Assembly: GCA_028875655.1 (NCBI GenBank)
Contig: JAPPCX010000035.1
Coordinates: 1-33,959 of the forward strand
Source: Chloroflexota bacterium
GTDB lineage: Bacteria > Chloroflexota > Dehalococcoidia > Lucifugimonadales > UBA3495
DNA length: 33,959 nt
Direction of reading: 5' to 3'
Both the position numbers and the translations under genes were made by a program. How positions within the stretch are numbered: position 1 is the stretch's first letter; the number at the start of each line of letters is the position of its first letter. Under the pieces are notes generated by a model that ran no database searches, had not been told where the DNA came from, and saw only the letters and a program-made list of their open reading frames with translations. This document shows, piece after piece, positions 9,595 to 15,864 of this stretch.

Positions 9595-9720
9595 GAGAAT
9601 CCCGCTCATTTCCGCTCACTCCCGTTCACTTGAGTAGGGCGTTGGAGTGAGACGCGGCGCTGAATGGGGGCGGATTGGGCCGTTTTGGGAGCAATAATGA
9701 CGGTTTTGGCGGGCATTTGA
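9595..9720. repeat. Dispersed repeat of about 115 bp, copy 1
   Basis: The segment starting AATCCCGCTCATTTCCGCTC and running through TTGAGTAGGGCG, GGGGCGGATTG and TGGCGGGCATTTG recurs in the same orientation at about 33736-33850. G-tracts are frequent. No plausible gene is seen in 9480-9767. Confidence 0.7.
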
Positions 9721-9759
9721 GAGGGTTTGGGGGCGGGGGCAAGTGGTTCGACAGGCTCA

Positions 9760-9767
9760 CTATGAGC
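9760..9767. repeat. Putative 8-bp target-site duplication, left
   Basis: CTATGAGC here is repeated directly at 15857-15864, immediately outside the right inverted repeat. The left copy completes the phrase GGTTCGACAGGCTCACTATG of a common dispersed repeat, while the right copy lacks that phrase. This is what insertion into such a repeat would leave. Confidence 0.7.
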
Positions 9768-9816
9768 GGGGTCTATCCGGGACACTAACGGGCACCCTAC
9801 ACTCACTCCATGTACA
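9768..9816 (+). repeat. Left terminal inverted repeat
   Basis: Reads GGGGTCTATCCGGG, then CACTAACG and GCACCCTACA into the element. It pairs with the right end at 15808-15856. Nearly all differences are transitions. A partial third copy with the same orientation (CCGGGACACTAACG) occurs at 10609-10622. Confidence 0.75.
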
Positions 9817-9939
9817 ATGGGCTGACACGCCGACAACTCCCTAAATCTCTAAACTTATGAAACAATGGCGGGGTTGAGGCGTGGGGCGGTTGTCCGTTTC
9901 CGCTTGACGCTCCCGATCCGCAATACCTAGTATGAGTGA

Positions 9940-10013
9940 GAGGGCGTGGCCGAGGTAGTCAAGGCGTCCGTCTCGCAGGTGGAAAGATACCGGTGCAATT
10001 CCGGTCGGGGTCT
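9940..10013 (+). tRNA. Degenerate tRNA-like sequence (anticodon CGC if folded)
   Basis: The length is exactly 74 nt. A D-arm (GCC...GGC with GGTAGTC loop), an anticodon arm (TCCGT/GTGGA with two wobble pairs, loop CTCGCAG) and a perfect T-arm (ACCGG-TGCAATT-CCGGT) can be drawn. The acceptor stem GAGGGCG/CGGGGTC has three mismatches and the T-loop departs from TTC. It is therefore probably a decayed tRNA or a tRNA mimic inside the left end of the mobile element, not a working alanine tRNA. Confidence 0.4.
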
Positions 10014-10054
10014 CACGCGGCACAGGGTACACCCACATGGGCAAATTGTGCCAG

Positions 10055-10594
10055 TCATCCTGCTATTTGTTTGCCGCGTATCCGATCCCAGGTAGCCGCG
10101 ATTACATACACGCTGCCCAGCATCACGACCAGATACAGGGTGAACGCGCCAACAACGGCAACGAATGCCACCGGTGCCAGTACCCAATCAGGCCAATTCC
10201 CCGGGGGCACCGCCGGGACGCCCAAAGTGGCGGGGACGTCGCCTATCCACCACGGGAAACCGTCGCCGTACCACCAACCAAAGGACACATCCACGGCCCC
10301 GAGGGGGACGGCGAAACTGGCCGCAAGCACCCACGTCTCAATAGTCTTGGCCGCCGTCTGCTTGAAGCCCACGAGGACAACGCCACCCACGATGCCAAGC
10401 GCCCCGGCCACGAGTAAGGGGGGCACTGGATTGCCTGAATACGCATCGGCGGCGGCACCGAGGATAATTTCAGGGTACCACGCCACCTTATCGGGGAGAT
10501 CGAGGCCGTCCCAGGTCGTCGCCACACAGGAGAGGGCGGACAGGACCAATGCAAAGCCAAGCACCTGCCGCGCCGATTGAATTGCCTGGCTCAC
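10055..10594 (-). CDS. Four-helix membrane protein, unknown
   Basis: A 179-residue integral membrane protein in the mobile element. Hydrophobic segments lie at about residues 9-27, 58-76, 85-104 and 137-165. The loop between helices 3 and 4 is rich in Trp, Pro and Gly (FGWWYGDGFPWWIG). The start is GTG 10594 with AAAGG about 10 nt upstream. The C-terminus ends in a basic stretch (WDRIRGKQIAG). No family recognised. It is downstream of the 151-residue gene on the same strand. Confidence 0.65.
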   Translation of the reverse strand: MSQAIQSARQVLGFALVLSALSCVATTWDGLDLPDKVAWYPEIILGAAADAYSGNPVPPLLVAGALGIVGGVVLVGFKQTAAKTIETWVLAASFAVPLGAVDVSFGWWYGDGFPWWIGDVPATLGVPAVPPGNWPDWVLAPVAFVAVVGAFTLYLVVMLGSVYVIAATWDRIRGKQIAG

Positions 10595-10649
10595 GGATCA
10601 CAACCTTTCCGGGACACTAACGAACACTCTGCGGCAGTAGGTACTACAT

Positions 10650-11105
10650 CTATTCCTTGTTGTGTTTCAATCGCTCAACGCTGGACGCAATCTCAGCCAA
10701 TGGCGAATCGGCGTAGGTATTACCATCCTCATGGTGAAAGGTCAGCATCCCGGTTGTTTGCTCGTATGCGGATGTTGGCACCGTGATACTCAGTGTTCTT
10801 CCCCGTTGCATTGCGGAGGTGTCCTGTTCAGTGTGGCCGCGCTCTTTGGTGTGTTTATCATAGGGCAGCCAGAAATCTACGGAGACGGTGACGCGATGTT
10901 CACCCTCCCATATAACAGCAAGTGCAGCGGTGCCCACTTGGTCAAAATGCACCAGCAGTGTATCCGGCCGGTATCCCTCCAAGTGAGTGTAAATGTCGGG
11001 ATGTGGCATTGCCGCCCGAACACTGGCCTCCAGTAAGGAACCCGCAGGCACTACCTCGGGGGTTGGCGTCGGTGGCAGGATTTTCTTTCGTTTGAATGGC
11101 CACAC
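10650..11105 (-). CDS. Hypothetical protein, mobile-element cargo
   Basis: A 151-residue protein starting at GTG 11105 (VWPFKRKK), with AAGGAGA seven bases upstream; the longer frame lacks such a site. The N-terminal basic patch KRKK is followed by a Pro/Thr linker (LPPTPTPE) and then a globular region with beta-strand character (TLLVHFDQVGTAALAVIWEGEHRVTVSVDFWLP). The tail is charged. No family recognised. It could be membrane-associated via the neighbouring membrane protein genes, but that is speculative. Confidence 0.55.
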   Translation of the reverse strand: MWPFKRKKILPPTPTPEVVPAGSLLEASVRAAMPHPDIYTHLEGYRPDTLLVHFDQVGTAALAVIWEGEHRVTVSVDFWLPYDKHTKERGHTEQDTSAMQRGRTLSITVPTSAYEQTTGMLTFHHEDGNTYADSPLAEIASSVERLKHNKE

Positions 11106-11241
11106 GGTGATTCTCCTTGTATTGAATTGAAATCTCACTAATGGGATAAATTCCCAATTTTGGCCTCTGTGTGTTTTCATGTGGACATGGATACTGCATC
11201 AATTGCCGCCGCGGTTATCGGTACCGCCCTGGGCGTGAGTG

Positions 11242-11436
11242 TCAGCACACTTGCGATAGGGACAGTATTGCGCGTGCAACTATGGCTAGGAGACCGAGGG
11301 ATACCCCAACCACTGGGATGGCCCAGAAATGGCGATGGGAGACCAGAACTATGGCCGCCCCTAATCCCATACCCAAAACGACCGCGACGATGACCACAAC
11401 CCACCAGGCGATTTCGCAGAGGAAGTCCAGCATCAT
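11242..11436 (-). CDS. Small two-helix membrane protein
   Basis: A 64-residue, strongly hydrophobic protein with two predicted membrane helices (about residues 10-33 and 38-60) separated by the short polar turn SHRHFW. The start ATGATG 11436 overlaps the stop of the upstream frame in an ATGA arrangement (11433-11436), so translation is probably coupled. The small size suggests a holin-like or accessory peptide. No family is assigned. Confidence 0.5.
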   Translation of the reverse strand: MMLDFLCEIAWWVVVIVAVVLGMGLGAAIVLVSHRHFWAIPVVGVSLGLLAIVARAILSLSQVC

Positions 11437-12256
11437 GTCGCCTCTTTTGCTTCAGCGTCAGTGTTTCCACTACGTTGTGGCCTCGTAAAATGCCCGCGTT
11501 CTCCCCACGGACTGGCAAGCATCCAGCATAGGCGCGCCGTGATGCGCTCCCGGTGGCATTCCTGGGGGATCACCAGAAACACGCGAGAAGTGCCGCGGTG
11601 AAACCACATCGGGATTGGTTCCGTACACAACGCCTTGTGGATTTCGGCGCAAATGTTCCTGATCTGCGCCTCAGCCTTCCCGCTCATGTTCAACTGGTGA
11701 TAGACCACGAGGCTTTTCCCGGCGTCCCAGACTGCCTTGAGGTCGTCCATGTAGGCATACTTCGGCCCGTCTCTGCGATACTTCAGAACGTCCTCGGCCG
11801 GCCGGATGTTGTGTTATCCGGGTCGAGGAACACCACATCCGCGTCTGCCATCCCATCGAGCGCACTCCGCCACCACCGGGCGCGCACTTCCCGATTGTTC
11901 ACCGCGTTGTTGTTCCAGCCGGCGTTGTGGAGCGATAGACCGAAATAGATGGTATCCGCCGGGAGAATGGCCGACTTCTCAATACATCCGACGCAACGGC
12001 GGTGCGGAACCAGCGTCTGCAAGTCGTGCCACAGCCCGGGGTCGCAGTCGTGATATTCCAGATACTTCTGTTTGGTGTGGGCCAGGTAGCCGGTGAACCT
12101 GCCCGCGGTGTCGTCCGGGTCGTCCGGCGTCATGTACCAGACCACGCCCAACCGCAGATCAGCCTCCAGCGTCTCGGGATCGGTGATGCCGCACAATCGG
12201 CGCAGTAGTCCGTACTTGCCAAAGTCGCCAACGTCGGCCACGAATTGATCTCGCAT
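11433..12256 (-). pseudogene. Frameshifted gene of an uncharacterised DPDN-motif family
   Basis: Two reading frames together make one protein of about 270 residues. The N-terminal frame (12256 to 11783, 157 residues) starts MRDQFVADVGDFGKYGLLRRL and reaches VVFLDPDNTTSGRP. The C-terminal frame resumes with AEDVLKYRRDGPKYAYMDDL and continues KSLVVYHQLN to 11433. The break falls in the CCGGCCGG run at 11795-11805, where one base too many or too few explains it. I recall the combined pattern (GDFGKYGLLR, GVVWY, FLDPDN, LVVYHH) from a family of hypothetical proteins common in islands. Function is unknown. Decay is likelier than programmed shifting, but the run is repetitive. Confidence 0.7.
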
Positions 12257-12296
12257 GGGTGGTTGCCCCCTTCATTCCATCTGGCTGGCAACCACC

Positions 12297-12354
12297 AAAA
12301 AGCGGTTGCCTTGCCTTCTCATCCACGCCGGGATTTGAACCACAAGGCAACCGC
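12297..12354 (-). terminator. Long hairpin plus T-run (minus-strand terminator candidate)
   Basis: GCGGTTGCCTTG (12302-12313) pairs perfectly with CAAGGCAACCGC (12343-12354) around a 29-nt loop that contains a T-arm-like GGTTCAAATCC (minus strand). On the minus strand the stem is followed by TTTTT. The next hairpin (CCGCCGA/TCGGCGG, 12351-12371) shares four bases with this stem, so the two cannot fully coexist. Confidence 0.5.
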
Positions 12355-12419
12355 CGATATAATTTCGGCGGCCCGTTCGGGCCTTTGGGCGTCCCGGCAT
12401 GGATGCCCAAAACAAGCGG

Positions 12420-12444
12420 CCCTCGGCATTAGCGGTGCCGAGGG
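12420..12444. ncRNA. Perfect hairpin, 9-bp stem, 7-nt loop
   Basis: CCCTCGGCA (12420-12428) and TGCCGAGGG (12436-12444) pair completely around TTAGCGG. It is part of the structured region upstream of the ribozyme. The 7-nt loop size recurs in the hairpins at 12351-12371 and 12709-12733. Confidence 0.55.
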
Positions 12445-12508
12445 TCGCACTTTCTTACTGAATTAAGCGCATCGGGAACCTCCCTCGCGGCCATGAGGAT
12501 GGCGTCTT

Positions 12509-12621
12509 GCTAGGGTCGCCGGGTCCCGTTGAGGGGATCGCAAGGGAGGCACGAATGCCATCCAAAGCTGAATATCCCAATCAACGGGCAGGGCTGCGTG
12601 CCCTTGTCCCTCGACCCTAGC
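12509..12621. ncRNA. Branched 113-nt RNA fold of unknown class
   Basis: The closing stem GCTAGGGTCG/CGACCCTAGC is 10 bp and perfect. Inside, CCCGTTGA (12525-12532) pairs with TCAACGGG (12581-12588), and GGGAT with ATCCC (12534-12538/12574-12578) stacks on it, capped by GGCA-CGAA-TGCC. A second arm, AGGGC-TGCGT-GCCCT (12590-12604), completes a three-way junction. An alternative pairing of CAAGGG (12541-12546) with CCCTTG (12601-12606) would make a pseudoknot. It does not match twister, pistol or HDV cores as far as I can tell. Confidence 0.55.
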
Positions 12622-12708
12622 GCGGCCATTGAACCACAAGGGGGCGGGCGCGTCAATTTTTTGGGCGTAGCCGTGCCGGGGTTATGATGGTCTAGGTAAT
12701 AAGTTGAT

Positions 12709-12733
12709 GGGCCGGAGTCCAAAGCTCCGGCCC
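12709..12733 (+). ncRNA. Perfect hairpin directly 5' of the hammerhead
   Basis: GGGCCGGAG (12709-12717) and CTCCGGCCC (12725-12733) form nine perfect pairs around TCCAAAG. It lies four bases before ribozyme stem I and may contribute the loop contact or insulate the ribozyme fold. Confidence 0.6.
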
Positions 12734-12737
12734 GTCT

Positions 12738-12786
12738 GCCGCACTGATGAGGGGATACCCCGAAATGCGACGATTGCATCTGCGGC
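12738..12786 (+). ncRNA. Hammerhead ribozyme, type I
   Basis: All core elements are in order and unmutated. Stem I 5' strand GCCGCA (12738-12743), CTGATGA (12744-12750), stem II GGGG-ATA-CCCC (12751-12761), GAAA (12762-12765), stem III TGC-GACGATT-GCA (12766-12778), cleavage dinucleotide TC (12779-12780) and stem I 3' strand TGCGGC (12781-12786), fully complementary to the 5' strand. Cleavage is expected after C12780. The known consensus CUGANGA...GAAA...UH is met exactly. Stem I is open at the far end, which defines type I. Bacterial hammerheads are often near prophage or mobile genes, as here. Confidence 0.88.
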
Positions 12787-13003
12787 TTCCGAGGATGAAA
12801 ATGCCAAGAGGACCGCCCTGCTGGACGGTCTAGACGGTCATTTGACTGTCGAAGGCCGAGTCCAGGCGAAGAACCCTTTGGGAGCCGCCCTCGACCTCGT
12901 CGGTATCAACGGCGGGGACGAGGGAGTAACCGACATTGCCGGTGGCAAGTCCGGCTACCGCATCTGCGCGGGCAGGGTACACCAGTAGAACGAAATTGCG
13001 CAA

Positions 13004-13513
13004 TTATTGCGTCGCCTTTTCCGCGACCTGCCACAACGCCGACTCTACAACGTCGTCGTCGTCCAGCGTTCCCACGATGACGGCCTGACTGTCCCGGACG
13101 TGTACGCCAGATTGGTACGTAAGTTGTTTGGCCTGGGCGAGAATTCGCTCGGTGAGTCCACCGGCAAAATCTGCTCCCAGCAACAGGAACGCGGCCGGTC
13201 GCCGCACACGGAGAAACCTCAACGCTAGCGTGAACGCCTCCACTTGTGCGCCTTCGGGCAGGCAGGCGCACAGCAAGTCAAACGGCGGCGCGTGGCCATA
13301 GACCGAAAGATCGTCGCCCTCCGCCGGCCAGTCATCGCCCGACTGGTGGACATAGACCACGTCCAGGCCGATAGAGCGGGCAGCGTCGCCCAAAGCTCCG
13401 TCGTCATCGTACAGGCAGGCCAGCCGGAGAATGCCGGTGGCCGCTGCTGGCGTCTGGGGCCGGGCGAGGCGGCGTATCGTGTCTCTGAGGGCGTCCCTGG
13501 AATCGTCTTGCAT
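13004..13513 (-). CDS. Rossmann-like protein resembling the N-terminus of C5 cytosine methyltransferases
   Basis: A 169-residue protein starting MQDDSRDALRDT at ATG 13513, with AGGAG about 10 nt upstream. The pattern LRLACLYDDDGALGDAARSIGLDVVYVHQSG... then FDLLCACLPEG recalls the SAM-binding N-terminus (motifs I-III) of Dcm-type enzymes. However, the motif I glycines and the catalytic Pro-Cys of motif IV (seen here as LPEG) are absent, and the target-recognition half is missing. It could be a degenerate or regulatory homologue. The function is not supported beyond fold resemblance. Confidence 0.5.
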   Translation of the reverse strand: MQDDSRDALRDTIRRLARPQTPAAATGILRLACLYDDDGALGDAARSIGLDVVYVHQSGDDWPAEGDDLSVYGHAPPFDLLCACLPEGAQVEAFTLALRFLRVRRPAAFLLLGADFAGGLTERILAQAKQLTYQSGVHVRDSQAVIVGTLDDDDVVESALWQVAEKATQ

Positions 13514-13680
13514 ATCTCTCGTCTCCTGCTGGGCTAGTCGTCGCACGGGCCCCGTGCGCCCATCCAAGGAAGAGGGCCGCCCATGTCGTTGTCAATATAT
13601 CAAATCGGCGGCGGATGATTTGGTGTGTCGGCCGAGAGAGTGTACCCTAGGGATGCAAGAAAATTCCACGGACAGCAGTT

Positions 13681-13706
13681 GCCCCGGGTGTTCCTGCACC
13701 CGGGGC
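13681..13706 (+). promoter_or_regulatory. Ten-bp perfect hairpin in a 5' leader
   Basis: GCCCCGGGTG (13681-13690) pairs perfectly with CACCCGGGGC (13697-13706) around TTCCTG. It lies 30 nt upstream of the ATG at 13737 and 20 nt before its AAAGGAGG site. It may stabilise the leader or act as an attenuator. Confidence 0.5.
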
Positions 13707-13736
13707 GGTTGCAACAGTCAAACAAAGGAGGAACCA

Positions 13737-14018
13737 ATGCCTAGCCTCACCTTGTCGTTGCCCGATCTAGGGTACACGCTCGTACCTGAGCCGGTGAAGT
13801 TGTCAATCTGTCAAGTGCTGGCGCTGGGTGAGTCGCCCGAGGCGTATTCAAAGTTTGAGGCCGGTATCGAGTTAGACCTCGGTATTATCCGGGCGGAGAT
13901 CAGGCACACCAATAGCGAGCCCGGACGCAAGGACACTGAATACAAAACGCGCCCGCCTTCGTCTGGCACTCCGAATCAACGAAGCACAGGACGCGACGGG
14001 CGCGGCCGCTTGATCTGA
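13737..14018 (+). CDS. Small hypothetical protein, mobile-element cargo
   Basis: A 93-residue protein starting MPSLTLSLPDLG. The frame is open further upstream, but ATG 13737 has an excellent AAAGGAGG site and the upstream part is shadow of the opposite gene. The N-terminal half is ordered-looking (LVPEPVKLSICQVLALGESPEAYSKFEAGIELDLGIIRAEIRH). The C-terminal 35 residues are basic and Gly/Pro/Ser/Arg-rich, probably disordered and perhaps nucleic-acid binding. It converges on the transposase (8-nt gap). No family recognised. Confidence 0.6.
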   Translation: MPSLTLSLPDLGYTLVPEPVKLSICQVLALGESPEAYSKFEAGIELDLGIIRAEIRHTNSEPGRKDTEYKTRPPSSGTPNQRSTGRDGRGRLI

Positions 14019-14026
14019 CGACGTCG

Positions 14027-15085
14027 TTAGTCCTGCTTCCGTCCCGTCAGTTGCTCGTAGGTGAGCCGCTTGCCCACCATTCCCCGGATCACGCGCTTGA
14101 TGCTCTCAAAGCCGTTGCCTTTGCCCGAGTTGAGCCGGTAGGTACTCTCGTCCAGGTAGCGGCGCAGGTGTTTCCGGCTGACGCCGTGATAGGTTCCCCG
14201 GTATGTGCCCTTGAATAGTGCCCAGAAGCTTTCAATCGCGTTGGTGGTCCCGCCGTTGTCGTTCACGTACTGGCCGATGCGGTGCTCCACCTTCTCGTGG
14301 CCGTACCCAAAGTCTTCGAGCCCCCGATACGCGGCGTGCCCGTCGGTACAGATGATGGAACCGATATGCACGTTGTCGAGCACGCCGTCCCGTATTTCCT
14401 CGATGTCGGCGAATTTCAATGGGAACGCCATCACCTTGCCGCCGGGCCCGCCCTCCTTGAGGCCGAACACGGTAATCCGACCTTTCTGCCAATCGCCGTG
14501 CAACTTTTTCTTGGCGTGTTTCCAGCGTTCGATGCCGCCAATGTAGGTCTCGTCCACCTGGACTGTGCCCCTCATCATCGGCGGGTCGTCCTCCCGCATG
14601 GCCTCGCGGATGCGCATTTCCAAGTGCCACGCCGTATCCTGCTTGACATCCAGCAATTTCGACAGGTTGACGCTGCTGACGCCATGGCGATCCGAGAGCA
14701 TGAAGTAGATCGCCAGCAGCCATTTCTTGAATGTCAGGTTGGTCTCCTCAAAAACCGTGCCGACGCGGACCGAGAAGAATTTCCAGCACGCCCGGCAACG
14801 CCACTTCATGGGCTTGCCGCCCTTGGACTCGTACACGTTATCGCTGCCGCATTTCGGGCAGAAGGGCGTCTCGCCCCAAACACATTCTTCGACGAAGGCG
14901 GTCGCCGCCTCCTCGCTGGAGAAGCGATCAAAGAACTTCTCGATGCCGATGATGTCCAGTTGCTCTTTCTTGGTTGGTTTCCGCTTGGGCGCGAGCGTGC
15001 CCGCCTTGTCTGGTGTCGTGATCTCCGAGCCGCCGCGGTTGACGATTTCGCCCTTCCTGACGCTGATCCTGTTGTTCGCGTCCAT
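14027..15085 (-). CDS. IS1595 family (ISXO2-like) transposase
   Basis: A 352-residue transposase. An N-terminal zinc ribbon (CPKCGSDNVYES...WRCRACWKFF, about residues 77-101) is followed by the FEETNLTFKKWLLAIYFM helix typical of ISXO2-like proteins. The DDE-type catalytic domain shows VQVDETYIGG (first Asp), IICTDGHAAYRG (second Asp) and TTNAIESFWALFKGTYRG (Asn-Glu). The frame is intact, so the enzyme may be active. The element's ends (9768 and 15856) are probably its substrates. The start ATG 15085 has AAGGAGAAAG upstream. Confidence 0.93.
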   Translation of the reverse strand: MDANNRISVRKGEIVNRGGSEITTPDKAGTLAPKRKPTKKEQLDIIGIEKFFDRFSSEEAATAFVEECVWGETPFCPKCGSDNVYESKGGKPMKWRCRACWKFFSVRVGTVFEETNLTFKKWLLAIYFMLSDRHGVSSVNLSKLLDVKQDTAWHLEMRIREAMREDDPPMMRGTVQVDETYIGGIERWKHAKKKLHGDWQKGRITVFGLKEGGPGGKVMAFPLKFADIEEIRDGVLDNVHIGSIICTDGHAAYRGLEDFGYGHEKVEHRIGQYVNDNGGTTNAIESFWALFKGTYRGTYHGVSRKHLRRYLDESTYRLNSGKGNGFESIKRVIRGMVGKRLTYEQLTGRKQD

Positions 15086-15110
15086 GATTGCTTTCTCCTT
15101 TCTCTTGCTC

Positions 15111-15159
15111 TGATTTCAACGAATCAGACGCAAATAATTTCTGTCAAGTATTGAAATCA
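15111..15159. promoter_or_regulatory. Inverted repeat upstream of the transposase
   Basis: TGATTTCAA (15111-15119) and TTGAAATCA (15151-15159) are perfect inverted copies 31 nt apart, directly 5' of the transposase start. An operator or leader hairpin is plausible. Confidence 0.4.
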
Positions 15160-15207
15160 ACAGAACGGATATTCGTCCCGTTCATTGTGCGCGCCACGGC
15201 TCTGAGT

Positions 15208-15267
15208 CTATAATGATGGTGTGGCAGCGCAGCCGGGGGTGACGGCCCCCAGCTCGAGGAGTTTCAT
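15208..15267 (-). CDS. Possible 19-residue leader peptide
   Basis: ATG 15267 follows GGAGG (15276-15280) at 8-nt spacing and encodes MKLLELGAVTPGCAATPSL before TAG. The stretch CCCCGGCTG(C/T)GCTGCCA occurs twice, once within and once upstream of this frame. It lies between the tRNA-like gene and the transposase on the same strand. Only the ribosome-binding site supports it. Confidence 0.3.
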   Translation of the reverse strand: MKLLELGAVTPGCAATPSL

Positions 15268-15318
15268 AATTCGGGCCTCCTTTTCTTGGCAGCACAGCCG
15301 GGGATGCGCCGCCATTAT

Positions 15319-15390
15319 TGGTGGAGACGCCGGGATTCGAACCCGGGCAGGGCGTGGCTATCAACCTGACCTGCTCACCAAGACGTCCCC
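15319..15390 (-). tRNA. tRNA-like structure with encoded CCA, no clear anticodon arm
   Basis: The acceptor stem GGGGACG/CGTCTCC pairs over seven positions (one G-U). The T-arm CCGGG-TTCGAAT-CCCGG is perfect, the discriminator is A and CCA is encoded. Total length is 72 nt with CCA, about four short. The middle does not form a normal anticodon arm: GCAGG pairs with CCTGC around an 18-nt insert that itself can fold (GGTT-GAT-AGCC). It may be a decayed tRNA or a mimic recognised by tRNA enzymes. Confidence 0.6.
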
Positions 15391-15403
15391 ACCGCTCTTA
15401 TGT

Positions 15404-15495
15404 TGGCGGAGGATGGCGGGATCGAACCGCAATGCCTTTGGAGACATTTCTCGGATTTACAGTCCGGTCCAGTTACCAAACTGGAAACATCCTCC
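15404..15495 (-). tRNA. tRNA-Tyr (GTA)
   Basis: A class II tRNA with long variable arm. The acceptor GGAGGAT/ATCCTCC is perfect, followed by discriminator G and encoded CCA. The D-arm is CCAGTTTGGTAACTGG, the anticodon loop CTGTAAA (anticodon GTA) sits on CGGA/TCCG, the variable arm includes GAGA...TCTC, and the T-arm GCGG-TTCGATC-CCGC has its outer pair mismatched. It differs from a typical chromosomal tRNA-Tyr in several stem pairs, as tRNAs carried by mobile elements often do. Confidence 0.8.
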
Positions 15496-15502
15496 GCCAC
15501 AT

Positions 15503-15559
15503 GAGGATGGTTCGTAGTGGACAACACCCCCATCAAAATGGAGGTTACGAACCATCCTC
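15503..15559. repeat. Perfect 14-bp hairpin next to tRNA-Tyr
   Basis: GAGGATGGTTCGTA (15503-15516) pairs with TACGAACCATCCTC (15546-15559) around 29 nt, inside which ACCCCCAT/ATGGAGGT adds seven pairs. The loop length equals that of the hairpin at 12302-12354. It could be a third, minimal tRNA-like element or a processing signal. Confidence 0.55.
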
Positions 15560-15624
15560 TCTACCACTCTAAACCCGTCTCCGATCTCATCACAAATTGG
15601 TTGTATTCCTAAAAATGCCCACAC

Positions 15625-15698
15625 AAGATCGGACGCCCCAACGCAATCAGTTGGGGCGTCCGATCTTCGATTCCCACAATTCGTTGGGGTGCCCGATC
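15625..15698. repeat. Perfect 17-bp hairpin plus a third copy of its arm
   Basis: AAGATCGGACGCCCCAA (15625-15641) pairs perfectly with TTGGGGCGTCCGATCTT (15651-15667) around nine bases. A third, slightly changed copy of the right arm (TTGGGGTGCCCGATCTTT) follows at 15684-15701. It lies between the tRNA cluster and the right end of the mobile element. A terminator or a nested miniature element are both possible. Confidence 0.6.
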
Positions 15699-15807
15699 TT
15701 TGATGGCGAAGGACGGCAGGCGCGGTTTACAGTGATTTTGCCGCTAAATTAGGCGAATCTGACCGATAGCCCGGAAATCACTGCTGATTAGGCCGGCACG
15801 ACCAGCC

Positions 15808-15856
15808 AGCACGTGGGGTGGATGTAGGGTGCTCGTTAGTGCCCCGGATAGACTCC
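15808..15856 (-). repeat. Right terminal inverted repeat
   Basis: Read on the minus strand from 15856 it gives GGAGTCTATCCGGG, then GCACTAACGA and GCACCCTACA, matching the left end. CTATGAGC follows directly outside at 15857-15864. Confidence 0.75.
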
Positions 15857-15864
15857 CTATGAGC

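Follow-up and report, generated by a model that had tools for sequence, protein, structure and literature searches.

Is a hammerhead-like motif in the cargo of a Chloroflexota transposon a genuine ribozyme, and if so, which RNA would it cut? The DNA analyzed here (the window) is 33,959 nt long and is an entire contig of a 3.45-Mb draft genome (GenBank assembly GCA_028875655.1, contig JAPPCX010000035.1). In the favored reading, given a probability of about 0.7, a type I hammerhead ribozyme in IS1595-type cargo is followed 92 nt downstream by a type-P5 twister, and their two predicted cuts would release a 147-nt RNA. Features of the window are listed in Table 1.

Table 1. Coordinates of features in the window, counted from its first nucleotide
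Feature	Positions	Strand	Remarks
Repeat at left flank of transposon	9702–9771		Contains TTCGACAGGCTCACTATGAGCGG
Direct repeat CTATGAGC	9760–9767 and 15857–15864		8 bp
IS1595-type transposon holding both ribozymes	9768–15856		6,089 bp; inverted repeats and target duplication
Transposon inverted repeats	9768–9813 and 15811–15856		46 nt, 39/46 identical
Divergent tRNA-like gene	9940–10013	+
Conserved structured RNA	12470–12640	−	About 160 nt
Weak promoter-like site 5′ of hammerhead	12661–12688	+	TTGGGC-16-TATGAT, by eye
Open reading frame spanning both ribozymes	12704–12988	+	94 codons; codon-like only from ~12785
Very stable hairpin immediately 5′ of hammerhead	12707–12735	+	Core GGGCCGGAG/CTCCGGCCC
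Type I hammerhead ribozyme	12738–12786	+	Predicted cut C12780/T12781; descriptor, minimum-free-energy fold, covariance model
Hammerhead stem I	12738–12743 / 12781–12786	+	GCCGCA/TGCGGC, 6 pairs
Hammerhead core	12744–12750, 12762–12764	+	CTGATGA, GAA
Hammerhead stem II	12751–12761	+	GGGG-ATA-CCCC
Hammerhead stem III	12765–12768 / 12776–12779	+	ATGC/GCAT
RNA between predicted cuts	12781–12927	+	147 nt; z = −5.17
Type-P5 twister candidate	~12877–12954	+	Predicted cut T12927/A12928
IS1595-family (ISXO2-like) transposase of the element	14027–15085	−	PF12762, 1.5e-32
Divergent tRNA-like gene	15319–15390	−
Divergent tRNA-like gene, long-arm form	15408–15495	−	tRNA-Sec per Rfam
Perfect 18-bp inverted repeat	15625–15667		7-nt loop

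The transposon and its cargo

The initial annotation had placed the motif in transposon cargo, and the window bears this out. An ISXO2-like DDE transposase, inverted repeats and an 8-bp target duplication that bounds the element exactly are all present, which indicates membership in the IS1595 family. This family generates 8-bp target duplications. In a congener (G008), the sequences flanking the two transposon ends lie 78 nt apart (L281), and this locus is likely the empty site of the transposon. Part of the left cargo recurs in genome G006 at 93% identity, and this copy stops at position 12660, so the ribozyme segment lies outside the shared block. BLAST searches with the ribozyme segment returned only short chance matches and no homologue, whether in 60 relatives, in 247 genomes from the order, or in phages and plasmids; the window's own RNA therefore offers no covariation. 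A match to the segment in G244 (L325) was rejected as unlike a twister. The element's proteins were also searched in viral contigs and phages, where nothing was found.

Other features were observed within and beside the element. The repeat at its left flank has many copies here and in congeners. The perfect inverted repeat lies near the right end, and similar sequence is present in L280. Divergent tRNA-like genes lie near both ends, and ARAGORN calls none of the three; the long-arm gene has an anticodon that appears to be GUA (Tyr). Genes resembling them also occur in L279, L283 and L284. A link between the hammerhead and these tRNA-like genes, as in phage theta ribozymes, was considered and rejected, since they lie kilobases apart.

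The conserved structured RNA on the minus strand of the cargo also occurs in L278, L279, L281, L283, L284 and L287, all within the genus. In seven sequences, 10 of its 39 predicted pairs are kept through two-sided changes. Its final helix contains a AAGGGAGG-like ribosome-binding stretch, and in L281 the ATG of a minus-strand frame directly follows the RNA. It has no Rfam match and is possibly a new cis-regulatory RNA.

The hammerhead ribozyme

The hammerhead core and stems were found as the initial annotation had located them (Table 1), and in the minimum-free-energy fold of 12736–12788 the core is surrounded by three helices, of which stem I is open. Stem III is based on the A12765–U12779 pair and reaches at most 6 pairs when G-U and A-U pairs are counted. 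The NUH cleavage triplet is A12778 U12779 C12780 (AUC), with C17 corresponding to C12780. A strict hammerhead descriptor gave this single match in the window and no other on either strand. Motifs of 6/4/4-pair quality are expected by chance at ~8e-6 per window and ~8e-4 per 3.45-Mb genome, a rough estimate derived from one simulated success. By sequence and structure the motif is a genuine hammerhead, predicted to be catalytic, and is a newly found member of a known ribozyme class.

Hammerheads for comparison were taken from IMG/VR contigs, in which 138 core matches yielded 92 of type I and 38 of type III. A covariance model (R1) was built from 33 aligned phage type I hammerheads, with the window sequence left out. 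Its sole match in the window, at 12737–12787 (+), scored 33.3 bits (E = 1.9e-8) and independently supports the type I identity claimed earlier. Phage type I hammerheads scored 15 to 69 bits with R1, and 12 of 42 fell below the window's score, many of the 42 being R1 seeds or chosen like seeds. Because the seeds were chosen by a GAAAC pattern, R1 is biased against the window's GAAAU and its score is conservative there.

The initial annotation had named the Rfam type I model as a check and the lack of a hit as grounds for rejection. That model has no match in the window at threshold and none genome-wide at E ≤ 10, nominally a refutation. However, RF00163 at its gathering threshold also gave no matches in 20 phage control loci (L032 among them), in 15 of which R1 detects a total of 26 type I hammerheads. 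Since RF00163 is blind to all 26 control hammerheads, its miss in the window is an uninformative property of the model, and the nominal refutation was discounted. The Rfam type I cut-off overlooks phage type I hammerheads, so surveys relying on it undercount them.

Two other matches were rejected. A type III hammerhead of 17.5 bits in a permissive Rfam scan is a shifted, mis-threaded alignment of the type I core, and the core of a hammerhead-like match of 15.5 bits in L278 is altered, with this match falling within a gene homologue. An R1 scan of 250 genomes, in which 23 of 1,082 candidates were scored and the window itself was missed, is too insensitive to establish absence.

Loop II consists of 3 nt (AUA) and makes no contact with stem I that is obvious by eye, so the ribozyme is possibly slow at low Mg2+. 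The hairpin immediately upstream may insulate hammerhead folding. The promoter-like site is not among the matches of a consensus promoter scan.

The twister candidate and the intervening RNA

The twister candidate lies on the same strand as the hammerhead and is absent from the initial annotation. A permissive Rfam scan matched the P5 twister family (RF02684) at 12879–12954 (+) with 25.9 bits, below the gathering threshold of 37.6 (E = 0.0039 for the family across the genome). L1 GAG, the UAA strand, L4 CAAG, P4 CCGG/CCGG and the U-A cleavage step are intact. P2 has 3 pairs and one deletion, compared with 4 pairs in the class.

Twister pseudoknots T1 and T2 contain 3 and 2 pairs, respectively (PMC5408937). 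The Rfam P5 model does not score them as pairs, and they were therefore compared with those of natural twisters. Among 131 phage P5 twisters, covariation of the two variable T1 positions is nearly universal, with 14 combinations seen, CC/GG included. An alignment of 28 sequences, window included, has T1 and T2 about 98% paired, although for most of the sequences the search pattern itself preset the T2 positions. The candidate has T1 pairs G-C, C-G and C-G and T2 pairs A-U and C-G, kept by paired changes. About one match of this score per 250 genomes is predicted by chance, and an equal-scoring match lies within an apparent protein gene in G067; chance would not be expected to place such a match within a few hundred bases of a hammerhead and on its strand. 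The identification of this candidate as a twister is well supported.

Two P5 twisters were also observed in L017 of a same-family genome (G025), at 1501–1564 and 1834–1901, with 62.9 and 35.4 bits. On the chromosome they lie to either side of a small gene, amid longer open frames, and the same region is present in L293.

The RNA between the predicted cuts is unusually stable, with a folding energy of −75.2 kcal/mol and a plus-strand z score (Table 1) that compares with −2.30 for the minus strand. None of 300 synonymous-codon permutations folds as well as this segment (z = −4.74). The fold consists of a long hairpin, which begins at the hammerhead cut, and then the twister P1 hairpin, a layout that would bring the two ends of the RNA near each other. 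Both the 3′ strand of hammerhead stem I and the twister L1 strand are taken up by the long hairpin, so the ribozyme folds and the released-RNA fold are mutually exclusive. Hammerhead helices are favored if the transcript ends at 12788 (pair probabilities of ~0.7 to 1). At a transcript end of 12800 the probability of stem I is ~0.3, and stem I is absent in the full 12695–12960 ensemble. This modeled loss of stem I as the transcript lengthens suggests that the hammerhead would cleave co-transcriptionally. In the same model, the first cut possibly interferes with the second.

According to the favored reading, a plus-strand transcript would start upstream of 12738, and the hammerhead would fold during synthesis and cut after C12780. 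The twister would cut after U12927, and the two cuts would free a compact, structured 147-nt RNA with a 5′-OH and a 2′,3′-cyclic phosphate. The chemistry of RtcB ligation suits such RNA ends. The host genome encodes RtcB, so circularization is possible and the freed RNA might afterwards be ligated by the host enzyme. Tornado constructs are synthetic, twister-flanked circular RNAs. The window likewise has a short RNA flanked by ribozymes, which differ from those constructs in belonging to two different classes and lying in a bacterial transposon. It is doubtful that the pair excises the 147-nt RNA and RtcB closes it into a circle, as a natural bacterial counterpart of twister-flanked constructs. 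In that reading, the released 5′ end (12782–12794) could pair with twister strand 12876–12889, coupling both cuts.

Alternative readings and related systems

The surrounding stretch had been described as gene-poor and hairpin-rich, which is correct with one caveat: codon-like periodicity begins just 3′ of the hammerhead. This part of the open frame (12785–12988) scores +0.07 nats per codon, compared with −0.53 and −0.65 for the two remaining plus frames; in the same register, the minus frame comes near it at −0.03. The hammerhead part of the frame is without codon-like composition. No family or homologue was found for the frame, and its interpretation as a known gene was rejected, its sole weak match (L327) being antisense to a larger gene that is Rieske-type oxygenase-like by eye. 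The stretch from the hammerhead to the codon-like part has no start codon accompanied by a ribosome-binding site. The periodicity reflects either a decayed or orphan gene behind the hammerhead with RNA structure built on it, or chance. It is the main factor holding down confidence in the hammerhead-twister pair.

Further points counting against the pair are the sub-gathering twister score, a P2 one pair short, the equal chance match in G067, the lack of a segment homologue and the competition of the 147-nt fold with both ribozymes. The twister score, the G067 match and the codon-like part, which starts right after the hammerhead, would also fit a reading in which the hammerhead alone is real, acting to shorten the message leader of a small gene, orphan or decayed, that reaches 12988, with the twister match being due to chance or dead. 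Leader trimming would be analogous to ribozymes between phage genes, and hammerheads and twisters of phage loci do sit between genes. However, the codon-like part is not preceded by a start codon and ribosome-binding site, the frame has no homologue, both twister pseudoknots are kept, and the folding exceeds what an encoded protein explains, which makes this reading unlikely.

It is also improbable that the transposon took up a phage- or Mu-like module of which both ribozymes are functionless leftovers. For both ribozymes the best relatives come from phages, and the segment is without homologue in the genus and missing from the related G006 element, whose shared block ends before it; however, decay should have broken some part of a hammerhead with perfect core and stems, or of an unusually stable intervening RNA. 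Chance arrangement of hairpins into a hammerhead motif would accord with the missing Rfam type I match and the lack of a segment homologue, but is very improbable given the tiny number of such motifs expected per window, the E value from the independent model and the equal failure of RF00163 on phage type I hammerheads in control loci. A hammerhead-twister pair, fitting a known association, is probable.

Hammerheads and twisters of bacteria cluster (PMC10085705), and clusters in bacteria and Mu-like phages come from earlier surveys as related in that source. Why bacteria and phages keep hammerheads near twisters is an open question (PMC10085705). In 100 phage P5 twister loci, 8 hammerheads were found, all on the twister strand and within about 1 kb. 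The window resembles the known clusters in having two self-cleaving classes close together on one strand in a mobile element. In contrast, open reading frames lie between hammerhead and twister in 7/7 phage pairs examined, whereas the 92 nt in the window contain no recognized gene. It is unusual for the two to lie so close to each other with a structured RNA, and no recognized gene, between them. The locus provides a compact test case for hammerhead-twister proximity, with one presumed transcript and a defined transposon, and the stable RNA between two different ribozymes adds to its value.

Known type I hammerheads from bacteria and from tailed phages (PMC3088659; IMG/VR L029–L148) share with the window a complete core and NUH triplet, a 6-pair stem I, a 4-pair stem II, capped stems II and III, and a location in or near mobile elements. 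The window differs in having GAAAU/AUC, where theirs commonly have GAAAC/GUC, and a short loop II with no recognizable stem I contact or pseudoknot. The twister candidate shares the P1/P2/P4 layout, GAG/UAA/CAAG positions and both pseudoknots with P5 twisters (RF02684; phage L149 onward; L017). It differs in its score, a shorter P2 with other bases, a longer P1 hairpin, and T1 CC/GG and T2 A-U in place of the common pairs. Retrozymes (PMC4918200) also have two self-cleaving ribozymes around a short structured RNA with ends suited to ligation; the putative pair in the window combines two different ribozyme classes in a bacterial DNA transposon.

One phage type I hammerhead, CTGTCT-CTGATGAG...GTC-AGACAG, recurs in L099 (578–628), L079, L085 and L129. 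Its copies are located within or close to phage tRNA genes, the one in L099 about 6 nt past tRNA-Asp, and recall theta ribozymes and tRNA processing (PMC10879173).
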